From Flavobacteriaceae bacterium (GTDB lineage Bacteria > Bacteroidota > Bacteroidia > Flavobacteriales > Weeksellaceae), in the NCBI GenBank assembly GCA_031276535.1, contig JAISMV010000125.1, forward strand, positions 1 through 42,915: a stretch of DNA of 42,915 nucleotides. The letters are read 5' to 3'. Positions 7,800-27,085 of this stretch are shown one piece after another; the first letter of the stretch is position 1, and each line of letters starts with the position of its first letter. A program made the translations under genes and the position numbers. The notes beneath the pieces are model-generated. The model was not told the DNA's origin. It saw only the letters and a list, made by a program, of their open reading frames with translations, and made no database searches.

Positions 7800-8497
7800 A
7801 TAAGAAAATAAAATTATTATTAGTAGAAGATGACCCAAGTTTCGGGGCTGTATTAAAAGATTATCTTTCGCTCAACGATTACAACGTCACTCTTGCCGTA
7901 AATGGGGAAGACGGTGTGGAGAAGTTTAAATCAGATACTTTTGACATCTGCATCTCCGATGTCATGATGCCTAAAAAAGACGGATTTACCTTTGCTAAAG
8001 AGATCATAGACATAAATCCGGATGTTCCCATTATATTTTTAACGGCTAAGAATATGCGTGAAGATATTTTGACCGGATACAAATTAGGGGCTAATGATTA
8101 TATTACCAAACCTTTTGATTCCGAGGTGTTGCTTTATAAGATCAATGCCATCCTGCAAAGAAATTCAAACAATACTAATAATAACCATGAGGACAAAGAT
8201 GTCTATGAATTTTCCAATTTTAAATTCAGTCCCAAATTGAGAGATCTGGAAGTGAATGATGTCACATATAAATTATCTCCAAAAGAAAATGAGCTCCTCA
8301 AACTTTTGTGTAAGTATAAAAATGATTTAATGCCGAGAGAAGAAGCGCTTCTTAAAATATGGCATAAGGACAATTACTTTACTTCGAGAAGCATGGATGT
8401 CTATATTGCCAAGATACGAAAATTATTAAAGGATGACGAAAATGTAGAAATCGTTAACATTCACGGAGAAGGATTCCGTTTGTTGGTGAAGAACTGA
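7796..8497 (+). CDS. OmpR/PhoB-family response regulator (RprY-like)
   Basis: A 233-residue regulator. Receiver domain at about 1-120: acidic pair in LLVEDDPSF, phospho-acceptor Asp55 in ISDVMMPKKDG, switch Thr in FLTAKN, and Lys105 in ITKPF. A winged-helix DNA-binding domain follows at about 135-233, with the pattern LSPKENELLKLLCKY and the recognition region TSRSMDVYIAKIRKLL. Start codon overlaps the kinase stop. The kinase is its clear partner. Targets cannot be told from the window; the MATE gene 107 bases downstream is on the same strand and is a possible but unproved target. Confidence 0.95.
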   Translation: MNKKIKLLLVEDDPSFGAVLKDYLSLNDYNVTLAVNGEDGVEKFKSDTFDICISDVMMPKKDGFTFAKEIIDINPDVPIIFLTAKNMREDILTGYKLGANDYITKPFDSEVLLYKINAILQRNSNNTNNNHEDKDVYEFSNFKFSPKLRDLEVNDVTYKLSPKENELLKLLCKYKNDLMPREEALLKIWHKDNYFTSRSMDVYIAKIRKLLKDDENVEIVNIHGEGFRLLVKN

Positions 8498-10484: not shown

Positions 10485-13400
10485 ATGTCAAAAGAAAAAA
10501 AATTATTTGTTCTTTCGCCTTTTGAATTGACAGACGTAGGTTTAGCTTTAAAAACAATAGAAGCGGGAGCTTTCCCAATAGTACACTTGGGAAGGGATAA
10601 AAACGAAGCGGTACAGAACCTGAAAAACTTAACGGAAAAAACAAAAGAATCTTTTGGAGTATGTTTCGCTTCAGAGTCAATGACAGACATTAAACTCCCC
10701 GAAAACGTCACCAAAGTATTTTTACCCTATGGTTATACCTTTCCTGTTAAAAAAGGTATAAAAGTTTACCATCAGGTTCATTCTTTTCAGGAAGCTGAAG
10801 ACGCCGTCAATCAAGGGGCAAAAGCTATTGTTTTAAAAGGGAATGAAGGTGCCGGAAAGGTAGCTTACGAGTCTTCTTTTGTCTTTTTTCAAGGCATAAA
10901 AAATAAATATCCCCAACTGAAAACCGAGATTTATCTTCAGGGAGGAATGGGAATACATACTTCCGCTGCCGCACTGGCAATGGGAGCTCAAGGCATTATC
11001 TTTGACAGTCAGGTAGCTCTGTTCCCTGAATGCAATATACCTAAAGAACTCAAAAACATTTTAAATAAACTAAGTGGAAGTGAAACCGTTTTAGTTGACA
11101 ATTTCCGATTTTTATTAAGGAAAAATTCACCCGTTCTGCCTGCTCAGGCCAAATACGAAGATATAGTTCCTTTCATGGGAGGATTAGACCTCTCTAAAAA
11201 TATTATTCCCGTGGGGCAGGATATATCCCTGTCAATAGATTTTGTAGAACGGTATAAGAATCTGGAAAATTTAGTATATGCTTTCCATGAAGCAGCATAC
11301 GGACACTTACAGCAAGCCCGGTCTTTGAATACAATAGGAGAAAACAGTCCTTTAGCCAAAGATCTGGGATTAAAATATCCTATCGCACAAGGTCCGATGG
11401 CGAGAGTCAGCGATATTCCCGAATTTGCGGAAAAAGTCACCGATGAAGGAGGGCTGCCGTTTATTGCTTTGAGCCTTATGATAGGAAAAGCAGCAAAAGA
11501 TACCCTGTCAGGAACACGAGAGCTCCTGAAAGAAAAACCTTGGGGAGTAGGAATTTTAGGATTTGCTCCGGCACAATTACGTGAGGAACAAATGAAACAT
11601 ATTTTGGAAAACAAACCTCCCGTACTACTTATTGCCGGAGGTCGTCCTTCTCAGGCTAAACCCTACGAAAAAGAAGGAATTAAAGTATTCTTGCACGTTC
11701 CTTCCGTTGCCTTGCTGGATATGTTTTTAAAAGAAGGAGCTAAAGACTTTATTTTCGAAGGACGAGAAAGCGGAGGACATGTAGGACCTCTTTCCAGCAT
11801 GGTTTTATGGGAAAAACAAATAAGCCGCTTATTAAAAGAAGATAACCTTACCTCCTTACGTGTATTCTTTGCCGGAGGCATTCACGATGCCTTTTCCTCT
11901 GCGTTCACCTCTATTATGTCCGCGACCTTAGCCGCTAAAGGGGCGAAAATAGGGGTTCTGATGGGGACTTCTTATTTATTTACCGAAGAAGCCGTTGAAA
12001 CAGGAGCCATCTCTGATGAATATCAAAAACTATCTATTTCTCACAATAAAACAGTTCTATTAGAATCCGCTCCGGGACAGGAAACAAGAGCTTTACCCAC
12101 TCCTTTCACGGACTATTTCAGCCGGGAAAAAGAACGATTGTTCTCCGAAGGACTGGATTCTAAAGAAGTGTGGATGAAACTGGAGGAAATGAATATGGGG
12201 CGGCAGAGAATTGCGGCAAAAGGAATAGAAAGACGGGGCAAAGAGCTTGTCAAACTGGAAAAAGAAGAGCAGATAGAAAAAGGGGTATACATGATCGGAC
12301 AGGTTGCGGCATTACGAAATGAAGCCACAACCATCAAAGAACTACATACCCGGGTTGCAGTCGATAACAACAAGCTGATTTCCCAATTGGAAAAAATTCC
12401 GGCACCGACCATAAAAGAAACCGCTCCAAAGCTGGCTATTGTCGGAATGGCAGGTATATTTCCCCAATCGAGATCATTAGAAGAATATTGGAGAAATATC
12501 CTAATGGGAAAAGATTGTGTAACGGAAGTTCCCGATACCCGATGGAATAAAGAGCTGTTTTTTAATCCGAATACAAGAGATACCGATTATGTATATTCGA
12601 AATGGGGAGGCTTTATCCCCGCTATTGACTTTGACCCGTTGGAATTTGGTATTCCGCCGCAGTCACTTGCCTCTATAGAACCCGTACAATTATTAAGCCT
12701 TTTAGTAGCCAAACGGGCTTTGGAAGACGCCGGTTATGATATGAAAACTTTTGATGGAGAAAATACCTCCGTCGTTGTAGGAGTAGAAGGGTCTACGGAA
12801 TTAGCTTTTGGTTATGGTTTCCGTGGATATGGAAAACAGGTATTCGGAGAACTGCCTAAAGAACTAAAAGATGCTTTGCCGATACTAAATGAAGATTCGT
12901 TTCCGGGCATCCTGTCAAATGTTGTTGCCGGAAGAATCGCTAACCGGCTGAATCTGGGAGGACGTAACTATACTGTTGACGCAGCATGTGCCTCCTCTTT
13001 GGCAGCAATGGATATTGCCTGTCAGGAATTACAAAATAAACGATCCGATATTGTCATTTTCGGAGGATCCGACTTACATAACGGATTATACGACTTTTTA
13101 ATGTTCTCGTCAACTTATGCGCTTTCCAGACAAGGCAGATGCGCTTCTTTCGATGCTTCTGCCGACGGTATCACGTTAGGGGAAGGAATAGGAATGATCG
13201 TTTTAAAAAGACTGGAAGATGCCGAACGGGACGGAGACAGAATATACGCTGTGATCAGAGGTTCCGGAGGCAGTAGCGACGGTAAAAGCCTCGGAATGAC
13301 CGCACCTAATAAGAAGGGGCAGATGAGAGCTTTACAAAGAGCCTATAAAAATTCCGGAACTTTACCTTCTGAAGTGGAATTAATAGAAGCACACGGTACC

Positions 13401-16400
13401 GGAACGGCTGTTGGCGACAAAACGGAACTAAATGCATTAACGGATATGTTTTTAGAATCCGGAGCTGTAACGGGACAAACCTGTTTAAGTTCCGTAAAAT
13501 CTCAAATCGGGCATGCGAAATGTGCTGCCGGTGTATCCGGAGTGATAAAGGCAGTTCTATCCACCTATTACGGTATTAAACCTCCGATCATTAAATTATC
13601 TACTCCTACTTCTTCCTACAAGAAAGAAACCAGTCCTTTTGTATTTAACACAAAAGCGACTATCTGGGGAAGTGAAAAAAGAATTGTCGGGGTGAGTGCT
13701 TTCGGTTTTGGTGGAACAAACTTCCATGTGGTAATGGAAAATTACCAGCCGGAAATTCCTTTTTTGAGCACTATGAATCTGTTGCCGTCAGAACTATTTG
13801 TGTTTAAAGGAGATAACCCGAACGAAGCTAAGCAAATAGCGCTAAAAGTTAAAAATCTTTTAGCTATAAATAATTCTTTTAGCATAAAAAACATAGCCTA
13901 CAGCCTGGCTCTGTACAATGAAAAAGAAGTTCAAATTTCCATAATTGCAGGAGACGTAAAAGAACTGGAGGATAAAATAGATGCCGTGCTTGCCGATAAA
14001 GAAGGAGAAGGTATTTATATCAGAGATCCGAAAGAAGGAAAAGTAGCCTTTTTATTCTCAGGGCAGGGAAGCCAAAGAATTGATATGGCTCGTGAACTTT
14101 TTGTTGCATTTCCTTCCATGAGGAAGTTATTAGTTCAGAATAAGGAATACGAAAATATTCTCCTCCCTCATGCTGTTTTTGATGACGAAAGTAAGGTACA
14201 ACAACAAAAGGCACTGAGAGCGACTCAGAACGCTCAGCCTTCTCTGGGTATAGTTGACTTTGCTATAGCTGATTTCCTTCGCTCTTTGGGAATAGAACCG
14301 GATATGGTTGCAGGACATAGCTACGGGGAACTCCCTGCTTTGTGTTTTGCAGGTGTTTTTGAACCGGAAGAACTCGTTCCTTTAAGCAGAAAAAGGGCAG
14401 ATGCAATTCTGGAAGCTGTAGGAGATGATAAGGGAAAGATGATCGCCGTTAATCTTCCGGATACGGAATTAAATTCCATACTGGCAGGAGAAAAAGATAT
14501 ATGGGCGGTAAACTTTAATTCTCATAAGCAAACCGTACTTGCAGGTTCTACGGCCGCTATGACCGAGTTTATAAAAAAATTAGGACAGCAGAATATCGTT
14601 TATAGAGAGCTTGTTGTTGACTGCGCATTCCACAGTCCTTTGTTAAGCCGTTCAAAAGAACTGTACGCAGAAGAGTTGAAAAGCGTTAAATTCAACGCTC
14701 CCACACTTCCTGTATGGTCAAATACAACAGCTGAAATCTACCCGTCAAAAGCAAACGAAATCAAAAAACGTCTTGCGGAACATTTAGTAAAACCCGTATT
14801 TTTCAGTAAAGAAGTGGATAATATGTATGCCGACGGAGCACGGATATTCATCGAAACCGGTCCGGGAAGAGTATTACTCAACCTCGTTCAGTCCATATTG
14901 GATACGGATGATATTACCACCATCCAGACCGAAGAGAGAGAAAAAGAAGGAACAAGTTTTCTGCTTAATGCCATAGCTAAATATATAGCGACAGGAAGAA
15001 ACATAAATATTAAAAAATTATTTGAAGGAAGAAATGTTTCCGTAATAAACATTGACGCTCCCGAACAATATAAAAAGAAACTTACCAATTGGGTGATTGA
15101 CGGGCATTATGCCATTCCTATAACCGGAATACTTCCTCCACACGGGGCTTTGCCAATAACAAAACCTATGAACTTACTTAAAACCGGAACTTCTTCCGAA
15201 AACCACAATGGAAATCTCACTCAGTCTGATCATGCGATATTGGAATATCTGGATAATATGAAAAACCTGATTCAAAACCAAAGAGACGTCATGCTGACTT
15301 ATCTTGGTCAGAATCCGGCTACTGCTATTGCAGCGCCGCAGACCCGAAATACAACCATTGAAGTCCCGGCTCATGAAGTTCCTGCCCGAAGAAATCTACA
15401 GGTAAACACTCAACAACAAACCATACAGAGTCCGACGGCTGTTCCACAACCCGTCCAGCAAACAACATCAGCTCCTGGGTTATCCGTAGAAGCAATAAAA
15501 GAAACTCTACTGGGAATCGTTAGTGAAAAAACCGGTTATCCGATGGAGATGTTAGAACTGGATCTGGATTTGGAAGCAGATTTAAGTATAGATTCCATTA
15601 AAAGAATGGAGATCATAGGAACCCTAAAAGATAAGTTGGATATCACCATTGACTTTGAAGAGTCTGAAGATGCCATTGAGAAAATAGCTTCCATCAAAAC
15701 GCTTAATGGCTTTATCAACTGGATTGAAGAATTGGCAAATTCCAAACAAGCCGCGAAAATGGTTAAAGATATTGCTAATCCGGTGATCTCCGAATCCGAT
15801 ACTTCGGTTGCGGCTGCTCCGGCTCCTCAAAACAGTGTGCTTTCCATAGAAGAAATCAAAACCTCTTTATTAGAAACCGTTAGTGAAAAAACCGGTTATC
15901 CGATAGAGATGTTGGAACTGGATCTGGACTTGGAAGCGGATTTAAGTATAGACTCCATAAAAAGAATGGAAATCATAGGGGTCTTACGGGAAAAATTAAA
16001 TATTCCTATTGATTTTGAAGAATCTGAGGGAGCTATTGAAAAAATGGCTTCTATCAAAACCCTTAATGGTGTTATCAGCTGGATTGAAGAAGTGACCAAC
16101 GGAAATTCCAACCAGTCCAAACCTGCCCCTAAAACAGAAAATCATGCAAAATCCGCGGCAATAGAGGCTTTCTCTCTTGATCCCGAATTGATATCCGATT
16201 TAGAAGGAAGTTTAGCAGTTGAAAAGAAGGAAGAACCTCTTTTCCGTACCCTTTTCGAACTGGAAAGCTATCCCATCCGCTCATCGGAAAAACTATCCAT
16301 AAGCGGAAAACGTTTCGCTCTTACAAATGATGGGAAGTTGGCCGAAGCCATAAAAAAAACATTGGAAGCCGAAGGTGCTGAAGTAGATATAATTTCAGGA

Positions 16401-17675
16401 AATGAAACCGATTTTTCTTCGTATGACGGATTACTGATTTTAGATGCTTCCGAGTCGCCTAAACAATATACCATAAAAGAAGCCTTCACAATGATCAAGC
16501 AGGCAGATACGGATCGAGTAAAATGGATCTATTTCTTCGGTGACATCGTGGGGAGTTTAGAGGGAAAAGAAGTCATCACGGGAGGAATAAGAAAGATACA
16601 GGGATTTTCAGGGCTGGTAAAAAGTCTTGCTCGTGAATATTCAAGAATAAATTGCAGAGCCATAGTTTCACATTCCGTATTTGAAGTGGAACAATTGTCT
16701 CAAATTGTTTTGAATGAGTTGCAAACTGCCGATATTTCCATAGAAGTGGTGTATAAAGGTTCCGAACGTTTTCGTTATAACCTGGTGCCGGAAACGATTA
16801 CCCTTAACGGACATTCGAATATAAGCCTGACTAAGGATTCCGTGGTGGTGGTTCTGGGAGGAGCTCAGGGAATCACGGCTGAGCTGGTAACTCAGTTATC
16901 CGCAGAATATCCCTGCCATTACATTCTTGTAGGACGTTCTGCAAAGCCTACGGAAGAAGACTATAAATATCTTTCACTAAAAGATAGAAGCGCAATGCGT
17001 AAATATCTGATCAGTGAAGAACATATGAAGAACCTTTCTGAAATTGAGAAAAAAGTTCAGAAAATAGACAAAACCAATCACATCATCAATACGATTTCCA
17101 ATATTGAACGTTCCGGTTCCAAGGTTACCTATGTATCTCTGGATGTAACGGACGAAGAAAATCTGAGAAAGTTCATCAAAGATACCTATAAACAATACGG
17201 GAAAATTGACGGATTTATTCATGCCGCCGGTCTATTGGTAGACAAATTATTTGTCCATAAAACCATAGACGCTTTCGAACAGGTATATTCGACAAAAATA
17301 AATCCGTTGCACGTTATATTGGAAGAACTTCGTCCGGATGTCAGGTTTGTGGTTCTTTTCAGTAGTATTGCTTCGGTATACGGAAGCAGAGGACAATCCG
17401 ATTATGCCGCGGCAAACAGCGTACTGGATTTAACCGCTCAGGTGCTGAACGGAAAGACGGAAACCCGAATATTAACCATTAACTGGGGTCCGTGGAAAGG
17501 CGCCGGAATGGTATCAAGTGCATTGGAAAGTGAATATGTTAAACGAGGAATTGCTCTTATTCCGTTAAAACAAGGTGCTCGTGAGTTCATAAATGAATTA
17601 AAATTCGGGAAAGACCATCAGGTTTTAATCATGGGAGGAGACGATAGCGGAGTGAAACAATTTTTCGGAATTTGA
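10485..17675 (+). CDS. Pfa-like megasynthase 1: NMO-NMO(ER)-KS-AT-ACP-ACP-KR
   Basis: A 2396-residue iterative type I synthase. Residues 1-250: a TIM-barrel-like copy of the nitronate monooxygenase fold, degenerate (GNEGAGKVA near 118 where the partner has ESGGHVG). Residues 290-620: a second such domain of the PfaD enoyl-reductase type, with PIAQGPMARVS, His432 in ESGGHVG, and AGGIHD. KS 648-1075: Cys835 in DAACASS, His970 in EAHGTGT, His1010 in IGHAKCAAG, all intact. AT about 1185-1490: FSGQGSQ and Ser1279 in GHSYGE. Two carrier domains with DLSIDSIKRMEIIG, Ser1704 and Ser1824. KR about 1890-2396: GGAQGIT and Tyr2307 in SDYAAAN. This equals PfaD plus PfaA of omega-3 synthases in one chain; no DH is present, that is on the next protein. 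Cytosolic. It should build an acyl chain from malonyl units; chain length and unsaturation unknown. Confidence 0.93.
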   Translation: MSKEKKLFVLSPFELTDVGLALKTIEAGAFPIVHLGRDKNEAVQNLKNLTEKTKESFGVCFASESMTDIKLPENVTKVFLPYGYTFPVKKGIKVYHQVHSFQEAEDAVNQGAKAIVLKGNEGAGKVAYESSFVFFQGIKNKYPQLKTEIYLQGGMGIHTSAAALAMGAQGIIFDSQVALFPECNIPKELKNILNKLSGSETVLVDNFRFLLRKNSPVLPAQAKYEDIVPFMGGLDLSKNIIPVGQDISLSIDFVERYKNLENLVYAFHEAAYGHLQQARSLNTIGENSPLAKDLGLKYPIAQGPMARVSDIPEFAEKVTDEGGLPFIALSLMIGKAAKDTLSGTRELLKEKPWGVGILGFAPAQLREEQMKHILENKPPVLLIAGGRPSQAKPYEKEGIKVFLHVPSVALLDMFLKEGAKDFIFEGRESGGHVGPLSSMVLWEKQISRLLKEDNLTSLRVFFAGGIHDAFSSAFTSIMSATLAAKGAKIGVLMGTSYLFTEEAVETGAISDEYQKLSISHNKTVLLESAPGQETRALPTPFTDYFSREKERLFSEGLDSKEVWMKLEEMNMGRQRIAAKGIERRGKELVKLEKEEQIEKGVYMIGQVAALRNEATTIKELHTRVAVDNNKLISQLEKIPAPTIKETAPKLAIVGMAGIFPQSRSLEEYWRNILMGKDCVTEVPDTRWNKELFFNPNTRDTDYVYSKWGGFIPAIDFDPLEFGIPPQSLASIEPVQLLSLLVAKRALEDAGYDMKTFDGENTSVVVGVEGSTELAFGYGFRGYGKQVFGELPKELKDALPILNEDSFPGILSNVVAGRIANRLNLGGRNYTVDAACASSLAAMDIACQELQNKRSDIVIFGGSDLHNGLYDFLMFSSTYALSRQGRCASFDASADGITLGEGIGMIVLKRLEDAERDGDRIYAVIRGSGGSSDGKSLGMTAPNKKGQMRALQRAYKNSGTLPSEVELIEAHGTGTAVGDKTELNALTDMFLESGAVTGQTCLSSVKSQIGHAKCAAGVSGVIKAVLSTYYGIKPPIIKLSTPTSSYKKETSPFVFNTKATIWGSEKRIVGVSAFGFGGTNFHVVMENYQPEIPFLSTMNLLPSELFVFKGDNPNEAKQIALKVKNLLAINNSFSIKNIAYSLALYNEKEVQISIIAGDVKELEDKIDAVLADKEGEGIYIRDPKEGKVAFLFSGQGSQRIDMARELFVAFPSMRKLLVQNKEYENILLPHAVFDDESKVQQQKALRATQNAQPSLGIVDFAIADFLRSLGIEPDMVAGHSYGELPALCFAGVFEPEELVPLSRKRADAILEAVGDDKGKMIAVNLPDTELNSILAGEKDIWAVNFNSHKQTVLAGSTAAMTEFIKKLGQQNIVYRELVVDCAFHSPLLSRSKELYAEELKSVKFNAPTLPVWSNTTAEIYPSKANEIKKRLAEHLVKPVFFSKEVDNMYADGARIFIETGPGRVLLNLVQSILDTDDITTIQTEEREKEGTSFLLNAIAKYIATGRNINIKKLFEGRNVSVINIDAPEQYKKKLTNWVIDGHYAIPITGILPPHGALPITKPMNLLKTGTSSENHNGNLTQSDHAILEYLDNMKNLIQNQRDVMLTYLGQNPATAIAAPQTRNTTIEVPAHEVPARRNLQVNTQQQTIQSPTAVPQPVQQTTSAPGLSVEAIKETLLGIVSEKTGYPMEMLELDLDLEADLSIDSIKRMEIIGTLKDKLDITIDFEESEDAIEKIASIKTLNGFINWIEELANSKQAAKMVKDIANPVISESDTSVAAAPAPQNSVLSIEEIKTSLLETVSEKTGYPIEMLELDLDLEADLSIDSIKRMEIIGVLREKLNIPIDFEESEGAIEKMASIKTLNGVISWIEEVTNGNSNQSKPAPKTENHAKSAAIEAFSLDPELISDLEGSLAVEKKEEPLFRTLFELESYPIRSSEKLSISGKRFALTNDGKLAEAIKKTLEAEGAEVDIISGNETDFSSYDGLLILDASESPKQYTIKEAFTMIKQADTDRVKWIYFFGDIVGSLEGKEVITGGIRKIQGFSGLVKSLAREYSRINCRAIVSHSVFEVEQLSQIVLNELQTADISIEVVYKGSERFRYNLVPETITLNGHSNISLTKDSVVVVLGGAQGITAELVTQLSAEYPCHYILVGRSAKPTEEDYKYLSLKDRSAMRKYLISEEHMKNLSEIEKKVQKIDKTNHIINTISNIERSGSKVTYVSLDVTDEENLRKFIKDTYKQYGKIDGFIHAAGLLVDKLFVHKTIDAFEQVYSTKINPLHVILEELRPDVRFVVLFSSIASVYGSRGQSDYAAANSVLDLTAQVLNGKTETRILTINWGPWKGAGMVSSALESEYVKRGIALIPLKQGAREFINELKFGKDHQVLIMGGDDSGVKQFFGI
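15484..16104 (+). repeat. Tandem acyl-carrier-domain repeat (period 360 bp)
   Basis: Two carrier domains inside megasynthase 1, with phosphopantetheine Ser codons at 15594 and 15954, exactly 360 bases apart. The DNA is nearly identical around the attachment site (for example GTTAGTGAAAAAACCGGTTA at 15519 and 15879), pointing to recent duplication or gene conversion. Tandem ACPs raise flux in Pfa-type synthases. Confidence 0.9.
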
Positions 17676-17684
17676 TTTTAAATT

Positions 17685-20600
17685 ATGAAAAATACAGATA
17701 TTGCAATTGTAGGGATGTCTTGTTTCTTACCGGGAGCTGATAACATTGGTGATTTCTGGGATAATTTGGTAAAAGGTATTGATTCTATTACAGATGTTCC
17801 AAAAAACAGAATAGATTCCCTTTATTTTAGAGATGAGATAAAGAAAATAGACCGTTTTTGTTGTCATAAAGGAGGATTTACTTCAACCATAACCGTTAAT
17901 CCTGAACTACTTGAAATATCTCCTCAGGAGGCGAAAGAACTGGATCCCGTTCACTTACTAGCCCTCAAATTGGTTTATCAGGCGCTGGAAGATGCTTCCG
18001 TTTTCGAAAGAAACAGATCTCTCAAAAAGACTTCCGTAATTATCGGAAAAGAAAATTACATCGGAGCTAACGATCTTCGTCTTATAGATATAATACATAC
18101 CGGAGAACAAATAACTCAGGCATTGAAAAATGCCCTTCCGAATCTCTCGGATAAAGATATTGAAAAAGTAAAGGAAGCTTTTCAAAAAGACAAAGGAGCC
18201 GATCAGACCAAAACCTCTTTGGAAAAGGCGCCCAAGTCTATCACCGATATTATAGCAGGTAAGTTAAATATCGAAGGAGCGGCTTATACCATTGATGCTT
18301 CTTGTGCCAGTTCTCTGATCGCCGTGGAACATTCCATACAGGAATTATTAAATGACAGGGCAGATGTGGCTATTGCCGGAGGCATTCATTTTAGCCAGAA
18401 TTCACTTTGTTGGAGCATCTTTTCACAATCCGGAATGCTATCTCAGGAGCAACAAATACGTCCGTTCAGCGAAGATGCTGACGGATTTTTATTAGGAGAA
18501 GGCGCCGGTTTTGTAGTCCTCAGGAGATTAGAAGACGCTCTTTTTGATAATGATAAAATTTATGCCATTATCAAAGGTGTCGGAATAAGCTCTTCCGGAA
18601 CGGAAACAGGTAAGGGTCAAAAGAAAGCTATTCTGGAAGCTTGGGAAAAAGCAAACGTGAAAGCTTCGGATATTGGCTACATAGAGGCAAACGGAATTGC
18701 TGTCAAAAAAGAAGACGAAACGGAATTAGACACGTTGTATCAACTTTTTAAAGATAATTCCAACGATCAAAAAGTTTTGCTGGGTACGGTAAAGCCTAAC
18801 ATAGGACACACCCTTTCCACTTCCGGAATTGCCGGATTGATCAAAACGGCTTTATCCTTATATAACCGGCAGATCCCGGCTACCTTACACTGTGAAAAAC
18901 CCCTTAAACTAATTCAGGAATCTCCTTTTTCACCTGTGCGGAAAACCATAAATTGGAATGAGAAGGAAACTCCTCTTGTAGCGGGAATTAATGCTTTTGG
19001 CTTTGGGGGAATTAACGCCCATGCCGTTTTACAAGCCTCTGACGGAGGGAACAAAGTTCAACCTCCTGTTTTTGAAGAAGAAGTCATCGCAATATCGGCA
19101 TCTTCCAAAGATGCCTTATTGGAAGCCTTAGATAAAAGAAATTTTTCTATTTCCGATTTGAAAGGGAAGTATCGTTTAGTTCTTTTCAACCCTACTTCAG
19201 AACGAATAGAAAAAGCAAAAAAACTTATTGCAAAAGATAAGCCATGGAGAGGAAGGCAAGACATCTGGTTCTCTAATGCCCCTTTATTAAAAGACAATGG
19301 AAAACTGGTTTTTGTTTTTCCCGGATTAGACCCTGCTGCAGGCGCTGAAATTGAAAGTGTTGCCAAGTATTTCGGATATGTCATTCCTGAAGGAATTACG
19401 GAAAAGCATCTGTTGCTTAACACAGCTTCCAGACAATATAATCAGGGAGAAGTTATAGATAACTCATTGAAAAAACTGGGTGTAATTCCGGATATGAATG
19501 CCGGTCACAGTTTAGGGGAATGGTTTGCTTTAAAATCGGGAGATCTGACCTCAAGCACCACAATAAAAGCCTTGTTGGAATCCTTGAATTTTGAAGATTT
19601 TCAAATGGAGGATATACATTTCATCGCAGTGGGAGCCGGAAAAGAAAAAATAACTCCTATATTGAATAAAATCCCGGATCTTTATCTTTCCAATGATAAT
19701 TGTCCCAACCAGACATTGCTCTGCGGTACGGGAGTAGCAAAGGACGCTTTAATAAAAGTTTTAAAGTCGGAACAAATTTTCCATCAGGTATTAGCTTTCC
19801 AATCCGGATTTCATTCTCCGTTTATAAAAGGTAAACTTCATCTTTTAGATGAGGCTTTGGAATGTCTTGATATTAAAAAACATAAAATTCCGATATGGTC
19901 GGCAACTACTTTGGAGCTTTATCCTTCTACTTTTCAGGAGTTCAGAGAACTGACCATAAAACATATGACTCAAACGGTTCGTTTCCGTGAGTTAATAGAA
20001 AAATTACACCTTGAGGAAAATGCACGGGTTTTCATACAGATAGGAGGAGGCAGTCTGGTAGGATTCATAGATGACATTCTTAAAGATCGGGAATATGCAG
20101 CCATATCCGCATGCGTATCGACAAGGAATTCATTAGAGCAACTAAGACGTGTTCTAGCGCTTTTATTTATTGAAGGAAGAAAAATAAATACTTCTTTTCT
20201 GGGATTAAAAGAAGATACCCGGGTATCTTCCCCCGAAATGGAATTTCCGGTGGATTCTTCTCTTGTAAAAACATTTCCTTTACTAAAAGAACTGTCAAAA
20301 AAACAGGTTGAAACTCCAACAGAATCAAAATCTTTGGACTCGTTGTTCATCAAATCCAATCATCCTGTTATTCAGGCAATGAATGACAATATGAAGGAAT
20401 TAATTTTCATGCAAAAAGAATTTTCCGAAATCGTTCAAAAGAAAAAAACATTTGCAGATACAACCTTCAGTTCATACACATTCAATAACGGAACAGCCCC
20501 AAATCAGCCCTATGAACCCTATCCGCAGTCTTTTTCTGTTCCCGAAGACGAAAAACCTGTAACAAGGAAAGGTCTTTCTTTTGAAGAACCCCTATACATC

Positions 20601-22034
20601 GATGTAGAAGACCATCCTTATCTGAAAGATCATTCCCTGATACAACAACCGGAACATTGGACAATTCTGGAAGATATGAGACCGGTTGTTCCGATGACTA
20701 TGACATTTGAACTGCTGGTTGAAGCGGCTCATAGACAAGACTTGAGCAAAAAAGTAATACAAGCGGGACCTGTCAGTGTTTTCCAATGGATGCCGGTACA
20801 TGTTCCATTCCATAAAAAAATTGAAGGAAGATGGATATCTGAAGATAAGATTTTGGTGAAAATTAAAAGTTTTGCCAGCAGTGAAGTCATATTAGGCGAT
20901 TCCTATCCGGAACCCCTTCCTGAGCATCTTCAGGAACTTGATTTAGGTGAGAGTGTGTTGGAACCTCCTACCCGCGAGATAATTTATAAAGATAAACTAT
21001 TTCACGGACCTAGTTATCATGGAATAATAGAAATAAAAGAAATTACACAAAAAGGACTTCGTTGTTTCGTCAAAAAAGCTGCCGGGAAAGGCTCTCTTTT
21101 GGATAATATAGGACAAGTCTTCGGATTGTATTTACAACTGATCTCCGGGGATGAAAATCTCCATATTAGTTTCCCTGTGAAAATTGACGAAGTGAACTTC
21201 TATCAGGATATGCAGGATCAGCAGGGGATATTCGAATGTATATGCCTCACTACATCTATGACAGATAAATTTACTACTGCGGATGTTATTCTCAAAAGAG
21301 AAGGAAAGATCTGGTGTATCATAAAAGGATGGAAGAATCAAATATTTGAGGGATTTGATAAAAAATTGTGGAATATAACCCTGTCTCCGACAAAAGTTCT
21401 TTTATCCAGAATAGTAGCTCCTAATGTTTATTTCTTTGATAATTGTTACAGTACTTATCTGAATTGGAATTTCATACTGAGTATATACCTGAATTCGGAG
21501 GAAAAACACCATCATGAAACCCTTCAATTAAAAAAGAGAAAAGAATATCTGATCAGCCGTATCGCGATAAAAGATGCAGTACGTAATTATATACAGACTA
21601 ATTTTGACAAAGGATATTACCCTGTTGAACTCAAAATCCGATATGATTCCAATAACAAACCCTCTGTATATGGAGTTCCGGAAGCTCAGAAAGTAGAAAT
21701 ATCTTTAGCTCATAAAGGAACCAATTCGGTATGTATAGCCTCTGACAAGCCGGTAGGAATAGACATTGAAACCATTGAAGAACGTGGAACGGGTTTTGTG
21801 GAGTTGACTTTTACGGAAAAAGAATTAAATTTGCTGAAAAACAGGGATTTGTCTGAATGGAGCACCCGTTTTTGGGTAGCTAAGGAAGCCTATGGGAAAA
21901 TGCTCGGTACAGGCTTGAAAGGAAATCCTAAACAATTTGAGGTGGAGGTAATTGAAGGAGAAAATCTGGTAATTCGTGACACAACAATAACCACAATTAA
22001 GTATACTAATTTTATAATAGGATGGACTCAGTAG
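17685..22034 (+). CDS. Pfa-like megasynthase 2: KS(His to Asn)-AT-DH-PPTase
   Basis: A 1449-residue partner starting nine bases after the first. KS-like 1-430: Cys207 in DASCASS and His375 in NIGHTLSTSG are kept, but the HGTGT motif reads EANGIAV, with Asn336 in place of the first His, so condensation is doubtful; it may act as a chain-length or gatekeeping subunit like the CLF of PfaC. AT-like about 540-850: FPGLDP, Ser609 in GHSLGE and FHSPF. Double-hotdog DH about 970-1230: His983 in KDHSLIQQP and Asp1140 in DNIGQ (DxxxQ), preceded by LFHGPSYHG. C-terminal Sfp-type PPTase about 1300-1449: Asp1360 and Glu1362 in GIDIE, and WVAKEAYGK at 1397. The PPTase should load the ACPs of this cluster, as fused PPTases do in enediyne synthases. 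The ACP gene overlaps its end by 13 bases. Confidence 0.92.
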   Translation: MKNTDIAIVGMSCFLPGADNIGDFWDNLVKGIDSITDVPKNRIDSLYFRDEIKKIDRFCCHKGGFTSTITVNPELLEISPQEAKELDPVHLLALKLVYQALEDASVFERNRSLKKTSVIIGKENYIGANDLRLIDIIHTGEQITQALKNALPNLSDKDIEKVKEAFQKDKGADQTKTSLEKAPKSITDIIAGKLNIEGAAYTIDASCASSLIAVEHSIQELLNDRADVAIAGGIHFSQNSLCWSIFSQSGMLSQEQQIRPFSEDADGFLLGEGAGFVVLRRLEDALFDNDKIYAIIKGVGISSSGTETGKGQKKAILEAWEKANVKASDIGYIEANGIAVKKEDETELDTLYQLFKDNSNDQKVLLGTVKPNIGHTLSTSGIAGLIKTALSLYNRQIPATLHCEKPLKLIQESPFSPVRKTINWNEKETPLVAGINAFGFGGINAHAVLQASDGGNKVQPPVFEEEVIAISASSKDALLEALDKRNFSISDLKGKYRLVLFNPTSERIEKAKKLIAKDKPWRGRQDIWFSNAPLLKDNGKLVFVFPGLDPAAGAEIESVAKYFGYVIPEGITEKHLLLNTASRQYNQGEVIDNSLKKLGVIPDMNAGHSLGEWFALKSGDLTSSTTIKALLESLNFEDFQMEDIHFIAVGAGKEKITPILNKIPDLYLSNDNCPNQTLLCGTGVAKDALIKVLKSEQIFHQVLAFQSGFHSPFIKGKLHLLDEALECLDIKKHKIPIWSATTLELYPSTFQEFRELTIKHMTQTVRFRELIEKLHLEENARVFIQIGGGSLVGFIDDILKDREYAAISACVSTRNSLEQLRRVLALLFIEGRKINTSFLGLKEDTRVSSPEMEFPVDSSLVKTFPLLKELSKKQVETPTESKSLDSLFIKSNHPVIQAMNDNMKELIFMQKEFSEIVQKKKTFADTTFSSYTFNNGTAPNQPYEPYPQSFSVPEDEKPVTRKGLSFEEPLYIDVEDHPYLKDHSLIQQPEHWTILEDMRPVVPMTMTFELLVEAAHRQDLSKKVIQAGPVSVFQWMPVHVPFHKKIEGRWISEDKILVKIKSFASSEVILGDSYPEPLPEHLQELDLGESVLEPPTREIIYKDKLFHGPSYHGIIEIKEITQKGLRCFVKKAAGKGSLLDNIGQVFGLYLQLISGDENLHISFPVKIDEVNFYQDMQDQQGIFECICLTTSMTDKFTTADVILKREGKIWCIIKGWKNQIFEGFDKKLWNITLSPTKVLLSRIVAPNVYFFDNCYSTYLNWNFILSIYLNSEEKHHHETLQLKKRKEYLISRIAIKDAVRNYIQTNFDKGYYPVELKIRYDSNNKPSVYGVPEAQKVEISLAHKGTNSVCIASDKPVGIDIETIEERGTGFVELTFTEKELNLLKNRDLSEWSTRFWVAKEAYGKMLGTGLKGNPKQFEVEVIEGENLVIRDTTITTIKYTNFIIGWTQ

Positions 22035-22321
22035 AAAAACAAAAAGAAAAGATATATGAATTACTCAAGCAATTCATAACAGAGATAATAGGGGAAGACA
22101 TTGCCAAAGAACTGGACATCACCCCGGATAGTATTTTTACCAAAGATTTGGAAATGGACAGTATAGAAATTGTTTCTTTTGCAGAAAAGGTAAAAGCTGA
22201 ATATGGTAATGGTATTGATTTTAACGGATGGTTGTCCGAAATGGGGATGGATAAAATAATCAGCCTTTCTATAAAAGATATTGTCAATTTTATTGTAGAT
22301 GCCACTAATTCCGATAAATAA
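22022..22321 (+). CDS. Stand-alone acyl carrier protein
   Basis: A 99-residue carrier with the attachment motif DLEMDSIEIVSFAEKV; Ser47 is the expected phosphopantetheine site. It differs from the integrated carriers (DLSIDSIKR), so it should serve a different partner, for instance loading of a starter acyl chain or transfer of the finished chain to the hydrolase or to an acceptor. It overlaps the 3' end of megasynthase 2 by 13 bases and the next gene by 23 bases, so translation is probably coupled. Length is somewhat above a normal AcpP (about 80), with extra residues at the N-terminus and in the loop YGNGIDFNGWLSEMG. Confidence 0.88.
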   Translation: MDSVEKQKEKIYELLKQFITEIIGEDIAKELDITPDSIFTKDLEMDSIEIVSFAEKVKAEYGNGIDFNGWLSEMGMDKIISLSIKDIVNFIVDATNSDK

Positions 22322-23063
22322 TAAAAAAGTTTTTGTATTAGAATTAAATCCGGAAGCTTCCGAGGCAATAGTATTGATCCATGGAATGTTTACCAACATG
22401 TCTATATTTTACTTTAATATAGCCCCCAAACTGGCAGAAAAGTATCATGTGGTATTATACGACTTACGCAGCCATGGTATGAGCGAAAAAGTTGATCATG
22501 GATACAGTCTGAAAGCATTGTCTCAGGATCTTCTTGATTTAATGGATGTTCTTAATTTATCGAAAGTTGATCTGGTTGGATATAGTTTTGGAGGATTAAT
22601 TTCATTGTACACTGCCATTCATTTTCCTGAAAAAATAAAAAAAATAGCTATAATTGATACACCCACTACCAATAAGGATGGGGATATAGAAAATATTCTT
22701 GAAAAGTACGCAGATGTATATTTAGGAAATTATGTGGGAGATTATACGGCTTCTACCAATATAATCCCTAATAACAAACAGTTGCAAAAAAGCAAAAAAT
22801 TATTTGATTATCTTCTTTACACATCTTCTCTGCCTCAGGATTCAGTTCTTGATAAAAATTTCTCTTCCAAAGAAAACATGAATTTGGTAAAGCATGAAAC
22901 TTTACTTTTATATGGAAATAAATCCGATTGTCTGCCCGATGGGGAGTTTCTTAATGCCCATATTCCCAATTCCATTTTACAAGTAGGAGAGGGAGATCAT
23001 AATATTCCTATCCAAAATTTTGAATGGATTATTGAAAAATTGCATACATTTTTTATTATATAA
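22299..23063 (+). CDS. Alpha/beta hydrolase (thioesterase- or acyltransferase-like)
   Basis: A 254-residue alpha/beta-fold enzyme. Visible: oxyanion loop LIHGMFTN, nucleophile elbow GYSFGG with Ser96, acid in LLYGNKSDC, and the catalytic His in GEGDHNIP near the C-terminus. It has no signal peptide, so it is cytosolic. Placed directly after the free ACP and overlapping it by 23 bases, it is a good candidate for hydrolysing or transferring the finished acyl chain from the carrier. Start ATG 22299 is in the overlap; there is no later Met before the first strand, which supports it. The specific reaction is inferred from position only. Confidence 0.85.
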   Translation: MPLIPINNKKVFVLELNPEASEAIVLIHGMFTNMSIFYFNIAPKLAEKYHVVLYDLRSHGMSEKVDHGYSLKALSQDLLDLMDVLNLSKVDLVGYSFGGLISLYTAIHFPEKIKKIAIIDTPTTNKDGDIENILEKYADVYLGNYVGDYTASTNIIPNNKQLQKSKKLFDYLLYTSSLPQDSVLDKNFSSKENMNLVKHETLLLYGNKSDCLPDGEFLNAHIPNSILQVGEGDHNIPIQNFEWIIEKLHTFFII

Positions 23064-23064
23064 T

Positions 23065-24252
23065 ATGGCTAAATTTTCATTTATAGTTCCTCCTTTCACA
23101 GGACATATCAATCCTACTTTAAGCTTGGGCAATGAACTTCTGAGAAGAAAACATTCCGTTTCTTGGATTAGTCCGGATCCCGGGCTCAAAAGCCAGCTTC
23201 CTTCCGGAGGAGAATTACAGGTTCTTTCCTTTAAACTGGAAGAAGAAGAAAAAAACAAATTGCTCGAACAGGCACAAGAGCTTCAGAAGAAAAAAACATA
23301 CGGTATAGACAGCCTTAAATTCTTATACGAAGAAGTATTAACTCCCATGAATACGTATATGCTTGAGGGAATTGAAGAAATACTAAGTGAATCCCGTCCG
23401 GATGTGGTCATTACCGACCATCAGGTTTTTGCCGGAGCAGTGGCTTCTCTTAAAAAGAATATCCCTTACGCAACCTCTGTCACTGCTCCTGCTTCCATAA
23501 AGGTAAATCCTTTTTTCCCTAAAATACACGAATGGGAAGGAGAACAGGTAATCTCTTTTCAAAAAAAATTCGGAATTTCCGGCAACAAACGTATGGATTG
23601 CTCTTCTTTACTTACTTTAGTTTATGTTTCGAAAGAGTTTTTCGGAGAAACCGACTTATCTTCGAACTATAAATTTATAGGTCCTGTGATAACTCCCCGT
23701 GCTCAAAAAGCAGATTTTGACTGGGAAAAATTGGAAACCGCAGGAGAACAGCGACCTAAGATATTGGTGAGCATAGGTACCACCTTTGATCTTTCTCAGA
23801 AAAAACAGTTTTTCAAAAAAGTTTTTGAAGCTTTTGAAAATGAAAATGTAACGGTAATTGCAGTTTCCGATCCGGAATTATTTGATTCTATCCCGGATAA
23901 TTTCATCATTCAGAAACAGATACCCCAGTTAGACCTGATTCCCCATATGCAGACCGTGATCTGTCATGGAGGCAACAACACCGTTTGTGAGACCCTGTCC
24001 CACGGAATTCCTTTGATTGTTATACCCATTGCGTATGACCAATCCTTTGTTTCAGAATGTGTAACAAACAAAAAGGCAGGAATCCGTCTCAATTTCAACC
24101 GTTTTAACCCTTCGCAGCTGAAGGAGGCTTTTAGTTCTGTTTTAAATGAAACGGAATACAGGCAGAATGCGCAAGCCATTAAAAGATCTTTTGAGGAATC
24201 CGGAGGAGCAGTCAAAGGAGTGGATTATTTAGAAGTTTTATTGAAAAAATAA
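23065..24252 (+). CDS. UDP-glycosyltransferase, GT1/MGT family (first of a tandem pair)
   Basis: A 395-residue GT-B enzyme. The N-terminus MAKFSFIVPPFTGHINPT carries the catalytic-type His14 of GT1 enzymes; the C-terminal sugar-nucleotide site is CHGGNNTVCETLSHGIP followed by PIAYDQ. The family (macrolide glycosyltransferases, CrtX zeaxanthin glucosyltransferases) moves glucose or a similar sugar from UDP to hydroxyls of lipophilic acceptors. An earlier in-frame ATG at 23020 lies inside the hydrolase gene; ATG 23065, one base after that gene's stop, gives the canonical N-terminus and was chosen. It probably glycosylates a hydroxyl of the synthase product. Confidence 0.9.
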   Translation: MAKFSFIVPPFTGHINPTLSLGNELLRRKHSVSWISPDPGLKSQLPSGGELQVLSFKLEEEEKNKLLEQAQELQKKKTYGIDSLKFLYEEVLTPMNTYMLEGIEEILSESRPDVVITDHQVFAGAVASLKKNIPYATSVTAPASIKVNPFFPKIHEWEGEQVISFQKKFGISGNKRMDCSSLLTLVYVSKEFFGETDLSSNYKFIGPVITPRAQKADFDWEKLETAGEQRPKILVSIGTTFDLSQKKQFFKKVFEAFENENVTVIAVSDPELFDSIPDNFIIQKQIPQLDLIPHMQTVICHGGNNTVCETLSHGIPLIVIPIAYDQSFVSECVTNKKAGIRLNFNRFNPSQLKEAFSSVLNETEYRQNAQAIKRSFEESGGAVKGVDYLEVLLKK

Positions 24253-24256
24253 CAGT

Positions 24257-25468
24257 ATGGCAAAATTTGTATTTGTAGTTCCTCCCTTTCTTGGGCATAT
24301 TAACCCCTCTCTCAGCATTGGCAGAACTCTTTTGGAAAGAGGACATGAAGTGGTTTGGGCAGGGTTAACGGAGATAAACTCCGAACTTATTCCTTCAGGG
24401 GGATATTATCATGTATTGGAACAATCGTATAAAGAGAACAAAAAAGAAATAGAGGATATTATCCAGCTGCAAAACAAAGGAGCGGGTATGTCAGCGCTGG
24501 AAGCTTTAAAACTAGGATTACAAGACACCTACATTCCTTTTGCCAAAATAATGTTTGATGAGTTCACCACGTGGGTTGGCAGCTATAATCCGGATGTGAT
24601 AGTTAACGATTGCATTTCTTTTGTCGGAGGATTGACCGCTCATATTAAGAAAATTCCGTTGGCTACTCTTACTCCCATCACTCCCAATGCGCTCCATGAC
24701 CCGGGTGTAGCTCCTGAAATTACCAAATGGGTACATAATTCCATAATCGGATTACAACGATCGGTGGGAATTTCCGGGGATGAGGAATTGGTTTTTTCCA
24801 AAAAGTTAAATATGTATTACACGTCCCAAAAATTTGTAAGATATAAAGATAACGACTGTCCTCCTTATATGAAGTTTATAGGAGCTTTAACCGGACGCCC
24901 CGATAATACCCCCTTTGACTGGGAAAGATTAAAAAAAATAAAGACCCCAAAAGTCTATATTTCTGTGGGAACCGTATTGGTAGATGTCCGCAAGGAATTC
25001 TTTCATCGTATGATTCAGGCTCTGGGCAATAAAGAAATAACCGTCATTGCGGCTGCAGACCCCTACATTATAGAAGATTGGCCGGATAATTTCATAGTAC
25101 AAAGATATGTCCCCCAATTCGAGCTTTTAAAACACGTGGACGTGGTTATCGGTCATGGAGGATTAAATACAGTCTGTGACACTTATATAAACGGAATCCC
25201 CATGCTCGTTATCCCTATGGCTTTTGACCAATTCCATACAGCGTCTTTGATTGAGCAGTGCGGATGCGGCATACGAATACGGTATAAACGTATGAGAATT
25301 CAGGATGTAGAACATGCTGTTGAGGAATTGTTATATAATCCTAAATATAAAACAGCGGCAGAGGAAATTCGGCAATCTTTCATTGAGGCAGGAGGAAACG
25401 AAAGGGCGGCAAATTTACTGGAAGAACTTTCCGTGACAAAGAATATCGTAAAATATCATAAGTTATAA
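24257..25468 (+). CDS. UDP-glycosyltransferase, GT1/MGT family (second of a tandem pair)
   Basis: A 403-residue GT-B enzyme that starts four bases after its neighbour's stop. It opens with MAKFVFVVPPFLGHINPS (His14) and has the donor motif GHGGLNTVCDTYINGIP and PMAFDQ. It is visibly a paralogue of the preceding gene, from tandem duplication, but with differing middle regions, so the acceptor or sugar order may differ. Two sequential transferases would give a diglycosylated product, or one on each of two hydroxyls. No membrane helix; it is cytosolic or membrane-peripheral. Confidence 0.9.
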   Translation: MAKFVFVVPPFLGHINPSLSIGRTLLERGHEVVWAGLTEINSELIPSGGYYHVLEQSYKENKKEIEDIIQLQNKGAGMSALEALKLGLQDTYIPFAKIMFDEFTTWVGSYNPDVIVNDCISFVGGLTAHIKKIPLATLTPITPNALHDPGVAPEITKWVHNSIIGLQRSVGISGDEELVFSKKLNMYYTSQKFVRYKDNDCPPYMKFIGALTGRPDNTPFDWERLKKIKTPKVYISVGTVLVDVRKEFFHRMIQALGNKEITVIAAADPYIIEDWPDNFIVQRYVPQFELLKHVDVVIGHGGLNTVCDTYINGIPMLVIPMAFDQFHTASLIEQCGCGIRIRYKRMRIQDVEHAVEELLYNPKYKTAAEEIRQSFIEAGGNERAANLLEELSVTKNIVKYHKL

Positions 25469-25510
25469 GATTATATTTCAATTTTTTATGGAATTTAAAA
25501 GCACATCAAC

Positions 25511-27085
25511 ATGAATAAAAATTTGTTTTCCACAGTAACGGATAAAAAATGTCTTTTATTGATTTTCATCTATATAATTTCCTTGTTAATAGGATCTTCT
25601 AAGATGTCTCCGCTTTATGCCGCCAATGAATGGTCAGACCCGAACATTTATTTTAACGTGGGGAAAGCAATGGTACACGGAAAAACCCTGTATACGGAAG
25701 TTTTCGACCATAAAGGACCTCTGATTTTCTTTATCTACGCTGCCGGTTATCTTATTTCCAATGATTCCTTTTTCGGAATGTTTATCATTGAATTGTCTTT
25801 CTGGCTGGTACTGGCTTATTCTCTGTACTTTACCGCGCGTATTTATTTGGGAAAGGCTGCTTCTTGCATTGTCAGCATAAGTTTCTTCCTTTTTCTTGTA
25901 GAGTTAATGAAAGCAGGAGGCTCCGCGGAGGAATTCATATTGTGTTTTGAATCGGTCAGCTTATACTTTTTTCTGAAATATTTCAATAGTGGTTCTACGC
26001 CCCATAAACCCGGATATATGCTGTTACACGGTGCAATGGTCACAGCAACTCTTTTGATCAAAATAAACCTTATTATTTTTTGGTTTTTTCCTTTACTGTT
26101 TATTTTTATAAAACTTCTTTTACAAAAAGAATTTAAGAATTTTATTTTAAACGTTTTAGCCTATATAGCCGGAACCGTTATTGTCAGTATGCCCATATTA
26201 GGGTATCTTTGGACGCATGATGCACTGGAAGAAGCGTATAATATTTACATTGTGCTTAATAAATCCTATGCAAAACTACAGTCTTTACCAAAAATCATAT
26301 CATTGCTCCTGTTCCGAACCATGTACTTATTCCTCACCCCAATGTCCTTGCTGCTGTTTGCCCCTATAGGAATATTCTATTTCCCGATAAAGTGCATGAA
26401 GAACAAAATAGAAAAATGGAGTATCGTGCTATCCGGTATTAGCTTATATAGTTCCATATTCATAGGAAAATTTCAATACTACTACCCTATTCCTTTTATT
26501 ATTTTCAGCGCTTTAGGTCTGATAGGAGTATCTTTATATTTAAGAAAATATGTCTCATTACAATTAACTACAAAATCTCTCAGCTTAGTTTGTTGTATAT
26601 GTTTATTTGCAGGATTAAGCATCTATCCTCCCGGAAATACACTTATTGACGAATATTTCCTGAGAGAACCCGAAAACCGATCATTAGCCTTACAAACCGA
26701 CAGGTTGAAAAAAGAAATTACAAAAGAAAAAAATCCTACCCTTCTAAACTTAGGTTTCGGTATGGGAAATAGTTTGTTCTCTACCTGTAATATTGTTCCT
26801 AATGTAAAATATTTTATACGTCCTAACCTGTCGTATGATTTTTACCCGGAACTAAGAAAAGAACAATTCGAGTATATAAAAAATAAAAAAACGCAATTTG
26901 TTATAATACAAGAATTTGTAGCTATAAAAGAGCTGTATAAAGGAGATAACCCTGTAGACAGGCCGGATTTTCTGAAAAGACTTCCTGCCCTTGCCGAAAA
27001 CTACAGGCTGGTCCTTTCGGATACCATCGTTAATAAAATAGACGAAAATTCTACGGAGGTTTATTTTTTATATAAAAGAAAATAA
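25511..27085 (+). CDS. Polytopic GT-C-type glycosyltransferase (ArnT/PMT-like)
   Basis: A 524-residue protein with about ten hydrophobic segments in residues 10-370 and a C-terminal soluble part of about 140 residues. The first periplasmic loop, NEWSDPNIYFNVGKAMVHGK and TLYTEVFDHKGPLIFF, fits the GT39/GT83-like pattern (acidic residue after helix 1, then DHKGPL). Members take sugars from polyprenyl-phosphate carriers on the outer face of the inner membrane. It ends the operon: 42 bases after the second GT1 gene and nine bases before a MITE-like repeat. I infer that it adds a sugar to the lipid after flipping. The exact family is uncertain because the hallmark is short. Confidence 0.75.
   Translation: MNKNLFSTVTDKKCLLLIFIYIISLLIGSSKMSPLYAANEWSDPNIYFNVGKAMVHGKTLYTEVFDHKGPLIFFIYAAGYLISNDSFFGMFIIELSFWLVLAYSLYFTARIYLGKAASCIVSISFFLFLVELMKAGGSAEEFILCFESVSLYFFLKYFNSGSTPHKPGYMLLHGAMVTATLLIKINLIIFWFFPLLFIFIKLLLQKEFKNFILNVLAYIAGTVIVSMPILGYLWTHDALEEAYNIYIVLNKSYAKLQSLPKIISLLLFRTMYLFLTPMSLLLFAPIGIFYFPIKCMKNKIEKWSIVLSGISLYSSIFIGKFQYYYPIPFIIFSALGLIGVSLYLRKYVSLQLTTKSLSLVCCICLFAGLSIYPPGNTLIDEYFLREPENRSLALQTDRLKKEITKEKNPTLLNLGFGMGNSLFSTCNIVPNVKYFIRPNLSYDFYPELRKEQFEYIKNKKTQFVIIQEFVAIKELYKGDNPVDRPDFLKRLPALAENYRLVLSDTIVNKIDENSTEVYFLYKRK

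Follow-up and report, generated by a model that had tools for sequence, protein, structure and literature searches.

The 42,915-nucleotide contig examined here (the window; contig C24 of a 2.29-Mb Apibacter assembly in 152 contigs, 93.5% complete) carries, at positions 10485-27085, an operon of seven genes encoding two Pfa-type synthase proteins (A and C), an acyl carrier protein (ACP), an alpha/beta hydrolase, two GT1 glycosyltransferases (GT1a and GT1b) and a GT-C-like membrane glycosyltransferase. The operon is genuine, is shared by many carriers and belongs to a known, uncharacterised kind of specialised-lipid operon. With a probability of about 0.6, it is best explained as a Type N-like secondary lipid synthase combined with enzymes that turn the acyl chain into an exported glycolipid, a single ketosynthase (KS) being at work. 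A broader proposal, on which we are evenly divided, is that of a mobile glycolipid pathway of Bacteroidota whose tailoring modules can be exchanged, PapA-type proteins in most carriers and a MATE protein with GT-C in Apibacter, Dysgonomonas and their relatives, in which the second KS of Apibacter is turning into a non-catalytic part resembling a chain-length factor (CLF) and is gone in one genome.

All features given below lie on the + strand. The list of open reading frames returned seven same-strand genes at 10485-27085, with the coordinates of a previous, sequence-only reading, and the single-direction operon proposed there is borne out: the gaps are 9 nt between A and C, 1 nt between the hydrolase and GT1a, 4 nt between GT1a and GT1b and 42 nt between GT1b and GT-C, while the pairs C-ACP and ACP-hydrolase overlap. 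The start of GT1a is most likely the ATG at 23065 (MAKFSF). Full-length homologues exist at 44-61% identity, and the arrangement is therefore not a product of chance.

The glycolipid reading draws support from the conservation of gene order. A species collection yielded 205 stretches with confirmed relatives of C, of which the best-scoring 80 were retained and each was analysed by tblastn with the window proteins as queries. As these loci were selected as C-encoding, they are uninformative on GT1 or hydrolase genes located elsewhere. A, C, ACP and hydrolase were found in 80/80 loci and both GT1 genes in 79/80, and in 79 of the 80 the six core genes share order and strand, the exception (L054) being cut by a contig end. 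The carriers are Chryseobacterium (33), Pedobacter (22), Mucilaginibacter (6), Sphingobacterium (6), Apibacter (3; A. mensalis L031, an Apibacter metagenome-assembled genome (MAG) L032 and A. muscae L058) and Chitinophaga (3), with single loci in Dysgonomonas, a Prevotella-labelled MAG, Taibaiella, Flavobacterium, Niabella, Dyadobacter and a Sphingobacteriaceae MAG; many related soil and host-associated bacteria share this core. GT1a and GT1b are fused into one protein of about 800 residues in 39/80 loci, from Chryseobacterium, Sphingobacterium and Flavobacterium (e.g. L043, 15298-17700). Outside the phylum, on a plasmid of Streptomyces sp. NBC_01243, A, C, ACP, hydrolase and a single GT1 are arranged as in the window and followed by a methyltransferase, and a second Streptomyces plasmid matches A and C. 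Since the core crosses phyla in fixed order, it likely works as one pathway, and since ACP, hydrolase and two GT1 genes adjoin the synthase in that order in 79/80 loci, the glycolipid product suggested by the sequence-only reading is still the best interpretation. Within the genus the operon is present in 7/9 genomes, the other two being assembled into about 230 contigs each, at 97% and 83% completeness. No comparable full-length C protein appeared in 51 genomes outside the genus, among the relatives' matches listed best first, and in a sample of the phylum C was matched at E ≤ 1e-150 in 4/395 genomes, its own included.

Synthase A (2396 residues, 10485..17675; annotated by Pfam, NCBIfam and hhalign) reaches 1045.6 bits as a whole protein against the PfaA model TIGR02813 (cut-off 1010.1), which upholds the earlier assignment as a Pfa-type synthase; in a six-frame search with the same model no single piece of A attains the cut-off. 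Pfam calls NMO, KS, acyltransferase (AT), PP-binding (two stretches) and ketoreductase (KR) in A. The N-terminal residues 1-284 (NMO1, 10485..11336) receive no Pfam call in the window protein and appear to be a degenerate NMO-like domain, as their profile aligned to that of NMO2 by hhalign (probability 90, E 1.6e-6); the Beijerinckia homologue of A has two NMO stretches by Pfam. The following domains are NMO2, a FabK-like enoyl reductase (residues 285-640, 11337..12404, with His432), KS1 (645-1090, 12417..13754, C835-H970-H1010 intact), AT1 (about 1186-1510, 14040..15014), tandem ACP1 and ACP2 (15477..16064, Ser1704 and Ser1824) and KR (2120-2338, 16842..17498, Y2307/N2311). Conservation was assessed over 85 copies, i.e. 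the window, a paralogous pair on contig C54 of the same assembly, three further Apibacter regions (L136-L138) and the 80 loci. The residues checked in KS1 and NMO2, His432 included, are kept in 85/85 copies, and gaps at AT1, ACP or KR residues are confined to a few rows: L107 (AT1, both ACPs and KR), L089 (ACP2 and KR) and C54 (ACP1), whose A protein may have a single ACP.

In synthase C (1449 residues, 17685..22034; Pfam and residue alignment) Pfam recognizes KS, AT and ACPS, the last being the phosphopantetheinyl transferase (PPTase, 21522..22031). AT2 (19302..20204) retains S609/H710. Pfam misses the dehydratase (DH, PS-DH-like, 20562..21404) in the window protein and calls it in the Streptomyces homologue; its H983 and D1140 are kept in 85/85 copies, as are the residues checked in AT2 and PPTase. 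The domain list of the sequence-only reading consequently stands in large part, Pfam supporting the labels and remote evidence supporting NMO1 and DH, with the exception of KS2 (17685..19049), which keeps C207 and H375, has Asn336 in place of the first catalytic histidine and is predicted to be inactive. Between them the two proteins have the domains for a complete fatty-acid cycle, catalytic residues included: A supplies AT, KS1, KR and the FabK-like reductase, and C supplies DH and PPTase. A and C would then work as a single iterative complex, with KS1 as the only KS adding malonyl units and DH acting in trans, to yield a long saturated or hydroxylated chain.

Release and glycosylation of that chain would fall to the genes behind the synthase, in which Pfam finds PP-binding, Abhydrolase_1, two UDPGT/EryCIII-like GT1 domains and PMT_2 (GT-C). 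The stand-alone ACP (22022..22321, LEMDSIE) and the hydrolase (22299..23063), a candidate off-loading enzyme in which Ser96 and His234 are invariant among 14 aligned sequences, may free the product from the synthase. A reductive release that yields a fatty alcohol, as in heterocyst glycolipids, is not supported, there being no thioester-reductase domain in the Pfam matches of the seven proteins. In the cytosol, the MGT/UGT-like GT1a (23065..24252) and GT1b (24257..25468, 35% identical to GT1a) would each attach a sugar; export of the glycolipid would fall to the MATE family protein encoded upstream (8605..9981), and GT-C (25511..27085, PMT_2-like) would add a further sugar outside, from the polyprenyl-phosphate donor that goes with the GT-C fold. 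This sequence of cytosolic glycosylation, export and outer glycosylation is suggested by the layout, with MATE before the core and GT-C behind it.

A special case of the glycolipid reading, which we give a minority share of the odds, is that the GT1 enzymes glycosylate a beta-hydroxy fatty acid, or a dimer thereof, released by the hydrolase, in the manner of rhamnolipids, and no other head group. It draws on the hydrolase and GT1 genes behind the synthase in 79/80 loci (the other being cut), on the precedent of RhlA, an alpha/beta hydrolase, and RhlB, a GT1 enzyme, and on the intact KR, by which a 3-hydroxyl group is available. However, the residues of DH and enoyl reductase are intact as well, so that full reduction is equally possible, and RhlA is not among the PDB matches listed for the hydrolase, by sequence or by fold, a result by which membership in that family is neither supported nor excluded.

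An unexpected trait of the Apibacter operons is the altered KS2. In 78/78 copies outside the Apibacter operon, including those of Dysgonomonas and the C54 pair, the Cys-His-His triad is intact, whereas it is lost in 7/7 Apibacter operons: the residues are C-N-H in the window, E-N-H in three operons, T-N-H in L138 and Y-S-N in L058, and in L136 the whole domain is absent, C being reduced to a 969-residue AT-DH-PPTase protein. Among the 120 proteins listed of 6331 matches, 109 have C-H-H and 11, the window's included, do not. KS condensation needs the triad, and the second KS of Apibacter is therefore very probably inactive, judged by its residues. Of the ten domains compared, KS2 also shows the lowest conservation within Apibacter (mean identity 0.56, with 0.86 for KS1; six genomes, 15 pairs); elsewhere it ranks second in conservation in Chryseobacterium, in Pedobacter and in comparisons across environmental genera (82 pairs, every twentieth) and third in Mucilaginibacter. 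Pairwise omega values (NG86; three pairs of three close Apibacter genomes, KS2 dS 0.58-0.92) are 0.11-0.20 for KS2 and 0.011-0.018 for KS1, and KS2 gives 0.010-0.042 in three control pairs from other genera, indicating that the constraint on the Apibacter domain is relaxed, not absent. Partners devoid of KS2 occur among kin: that of Beijerinckia comprises DH and PPTase only by Pfam, and that of Rhodobacteraceae SC52 aligns over AT-DH-PPTase without KS2 (alignment only). Retained in 6/7 Apibacter operons, KS2 could serve as a structural, CLF-like part.

It is possible, albeit unlikely, that KS2 is instead in plain slow decay or has acquired a new, non-condensing activity. The triad residues vary by lineage (C, E, S, T, Y; N, S), one genome has lost the domain and the window still holds Cys207, all of which would fit such a course; the full-length, stop-free KS2 in 6/7 genomes and omega values well under 1 in the three pairs argue for a retained structural role.

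A second division among the loci concerns tailoring. Condensation/PapA-type proteins of about 425 residues, one to three per locus, stand behind the GT1 genes in 74/75 loci outside the GT-C group, the 75th being a cut contig; two members scanned match PF00668, PF16911 and PF07247, and the HxxxDG motif is present in 151 of 154 members. Conversely, the five loci of the GT-C group (three Apibacter, Dysgonomonas mossii and the Prevotella-labelled MAG) all have MATE upstream and GT-C downstream, and none has a PapA-type protein; among the 80 loci the MATE gene is seen only with the GT-C type. The Apibacter regions L136-L138 likewise match MATE, truncated by the stretch end in two, and GT-C, with no PapA in the 1.6-3.8 kb covered beyond GT-C, and one search of the window's genome with a PapA query, run without a positive control, gave no match. 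PapA-like acylation may thus replace the last steps in most other Bacteroidota carriers. Dysgonomonas is host-associated. Apibacter are bee gut bacteria, according to the available part of PMC10673953. As separate observations, a gene of the 3-hydroxyacyl-CoA dehydrogenase family lies behind GT-C in Dysgonomonas, with a homologue in that place in the Prevotella-labelled MAG (L034 19341-20207, L033 19434-20306), and is not at that place in the A. mensalis locus; and a small protein of about 180 residues, with no Pfam family above cut-off in two members scanned, is encoded behind the PapA-type genes in 65/80 loci (e.g. L043, 20311-20862).

Several points weigh against the proposed exported glycolipid and its single working KS. 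At position 210 of the hydrolase, where its acid is expected, the residue varies between D and N, and the enzyme resembles many different esterases. GT-C rests on a weak Pfam match (31.1 bits, cut-off 26.1), and its structure model failed, with a pLDDT of 45.9, too poor for a fold search. MATE proteins are as a rule drug exporters. The sequence does not reveal the sugar donors, the chain length or the linkage. As to KS2, the window's copy retains its cysteine (C207) and is 0.60 identical to that of A. mensalis, much like AT2 (0.61), DH (0.60) and PPTase (0.59); identity is far lower for L138 and L058 (0.49 and 0.44), and divergence is uneven across Apibacter. The KS2 omega likewise exceeds that of AT2 (0.07-0.12) just modestly. 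Finally, Dysgonomonas combines MATE and GT-C with an intact KS2, and loss of KS2 and the swap in tailoring are therefore not tied to each other.

A glycosylated polyketide or antibiotic, with the GT1 enzymes acting like macrolide glycosyltransferases, is improbable. The best NCBIfam match of both GT1a and GT1b is the MGT family, at 189.9 and 181.3 bits and thus under the cut-off of 260, and the nearest solved chains to GT1a are the glycosyl transferase 10zg and YjiC; the PfaA-family score above cut-off, the tandem ACPs and the PapA-like acyltransferases in sister loci speak against it. That the operon makes a free long-chain or polyunsaturated fatty acid (PUFA), with unrelated glycosyltransferase genes next to it, finds a footing in the same PfaA score and is very improbable in view of the gene order kept with ACP, hydrolase and two GT1 in 79/80 loci and of the Pfam matches of C, which include no second KS/CLF and no FabA-like DH.

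If the broader proposal with its non-catalytic KS2 is true, one KS would suffice for this class of synthase, and the Apibacter copies would form a natural series for the origin of chain-length factors. The gene set kept across these loci suggests that common Bacteroidota make a long-chain lipid carrying two sugars, and the exchange of its final steps can be put to the test. One genus has lost the KS2 triad, and a C54 paralogue in the window's own assembly keeps it, which provides a handle on the role of the second KS in Pfa-type synthases. As far as the literature was searched, the conserved glycolipid gene set, the exchange between PapA and MATE/GT-C and the triad loss in Apibacter are new.

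The paralogous pair just mentioned (L009/L010; G000:C54:10624-21890) encodes proteins of 2277 and 1470 residues, 61% identical to A over residues 4-1750 and 42% identical to C, with intact KS2 residues. PapA, MATE and GT-C queries gave no match near it. Its 530-residue neighbour, considered as a glycosyltransferase, was rejected as such, being PEP carboxykinase (pckA). At E ≤ 1e-150 none of the eight remaining genomes of the genus matched the C54 synthase; its contig may be in the assembly through a binning error, and its GC content is like that of the window contig (0.372 vs 0.373).

For the A proteins, a tree of 27 rows (quick method, SH-aLRT only, midpoint root) sets Apibacter apart on one side (100) together with Dysgonomonas, the Prevotella-labelled MAG and C54, and Chryseobacterium, a member of the Weeksellaceae as is Apibacter, is placed among Sphingobacteriaceae. 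A tree of 29 KS domains (bootstrap, midpoint root, no outgroup) concurs on the grouping of KS1 (100/99) and joins KS1 with Streptomyces A (99/99) and KS2 with Streptomyces C (98/94). Its deeper, unstarred links place KS1 with a Persicobacter PfaA, which scores 2170 bits, and Beijerinckia (91/87); for KS2 the partner is the first of the two KS domains in a Persicobacter protein (81/92). Transfer between orders would be the simplest reading of both trees.

Upstream of the operon, a histidine kinase and response regulator (6231..8497), also upstream in three named Apibacter loci, is a possible operon regulator. A promoter scan of 9900-10600 was uninformative, giving 6 matches, with 4.4 (sd 1.9) in shuffles. 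Directly behind the operon lies a 191-bp element (27095-27285) resembling a miniature inverted-repeat transposable element, with perfect terminal inverted repeats of 21 nt; of 237 candidates at first look in the assembly, 40 were scored as near-full-length copies, this one included, at 94-100% identity, and at least four copies begin within 25 bases of a contig start.

Among known systems, the mycobacterial PapA pathways resemble the loci outside the GT-C group in pairing a polyketide-type synthase with a PapA-type transferase (PF16911), but no PapA stands beside the Apibacter operons within the stretches covered. The likeness to PUFA synthases lies in the whole A protein, which scores as PfaA, whereas the KS-CLF and two DH domains of PfaC have no counterpart in C, with its one KS and no FabA-like DH (Pfam, E ≤ 0.001). 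The heterocyst hgl islands, related to PUFA synthases, some in Bacteroidetes, according to the accessible text of PMC11804610, share a Pfa-type synthase with a glycosyltransferase; HglC, however, is KS-CLF-AT (PMC3098273, in part), whereas C in the window is KS-AT-DH-PPTase, has no CLF and is accompanied by two GT1 and GT-C. The functional resemblance to heterocyst glycolipids seen in the sequence-only reading is therefore loose: the association of a Pfa-type synthase with glycosyltransferases holds, and CLF, thioester-reductase domain and ABC exporter are missing from the Pfam matches of the seven proteins.

A further comparison is with the Type P systems of Azotobacter and Beijerinckia, synthases of phenolic lipid chains (available text of PMC3098273), in which ArsA is a C23-C25 fatty acid synthase and ArsD a PPTase (available text of PMC4824345); the Azotobacter product is a long saturated acyl chain in both accounts. 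Beijerinckia A shares the order NMO-NMO-KS-AT-ACP2-KR with the window. The Beijerinckia locus differs in having two KAS III-like (type III polyketide synthase-like) genes between A and its partner, whereas no type III polyketide synthase is found in the Pfam matches of the seven window proteins, and among the annotated features shown in its incomplete gene table there is one glycosyltransferase and no alpha/beta hydrolase. As an observation apart, the Beijerinckia and Methylosinus clusters (L139, L150) adjoin a glycosyltransferase and an ABC export system.

In the literature searched, which left most subscription journals outside, no paper was found that characterises this cluster or names a Type N product; the accessible part of PMC13291983 makes no mention of Bacteroidota, and the word "glycosyl" does not occur in the main text of PMC3098273. 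A T1PKS.hglE-KS cluster family reported as Apibacter-specific among bee gut bacteria (PMC10673953, 2023), and described in the part available without genes, domains or product, is very probably the present cluster, on the basis of genus and class label. The nearest class is Type N, found in Bacteroidetes, to which Shulse & Allen 2011 (PMC3098273, as far as available) assign the secondary lipid synthases of C. pinensis and C. gleum, with an uncharacterised product; these named strains are not among the 80 loci and C. gleum is not in the homologues listed, so that the comparison, with Chryseobacterium and Chitinophaga among the loci, holds at genus level. Because that class is in print and Beijerinckia Type P shares the order of A, the domain order is not unusual, contrary to the earlier claim. 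The x(G/D)xP motif (P1a), stated there for PPTases of all types, reads NNKP in the window, the G form occurring in at least 52/85 copies; the operon is for this reason called Type N-like and not classed as a member, and Apibacter further differs in the altered KS2 and the MATE/GT-C neighbours. The PPTase motif hShxH (P1b') is present in 85/85 copies (the L058 match may be chance), (F/S)NxSH in 0/85 and the P0 pattern in 1/85, and the window's PPTase has the Type N combination of hShxH with neither P0 nor (F/S)NxSH. The proximal KS is of Pfa type, by the PfaA score and by the grouping of KS1 with PfaA, Type P and Streptomyces relatives, and a PfaA-like synthase with an adjacent hShxH-type PPTase is what the window and Type N have in common.

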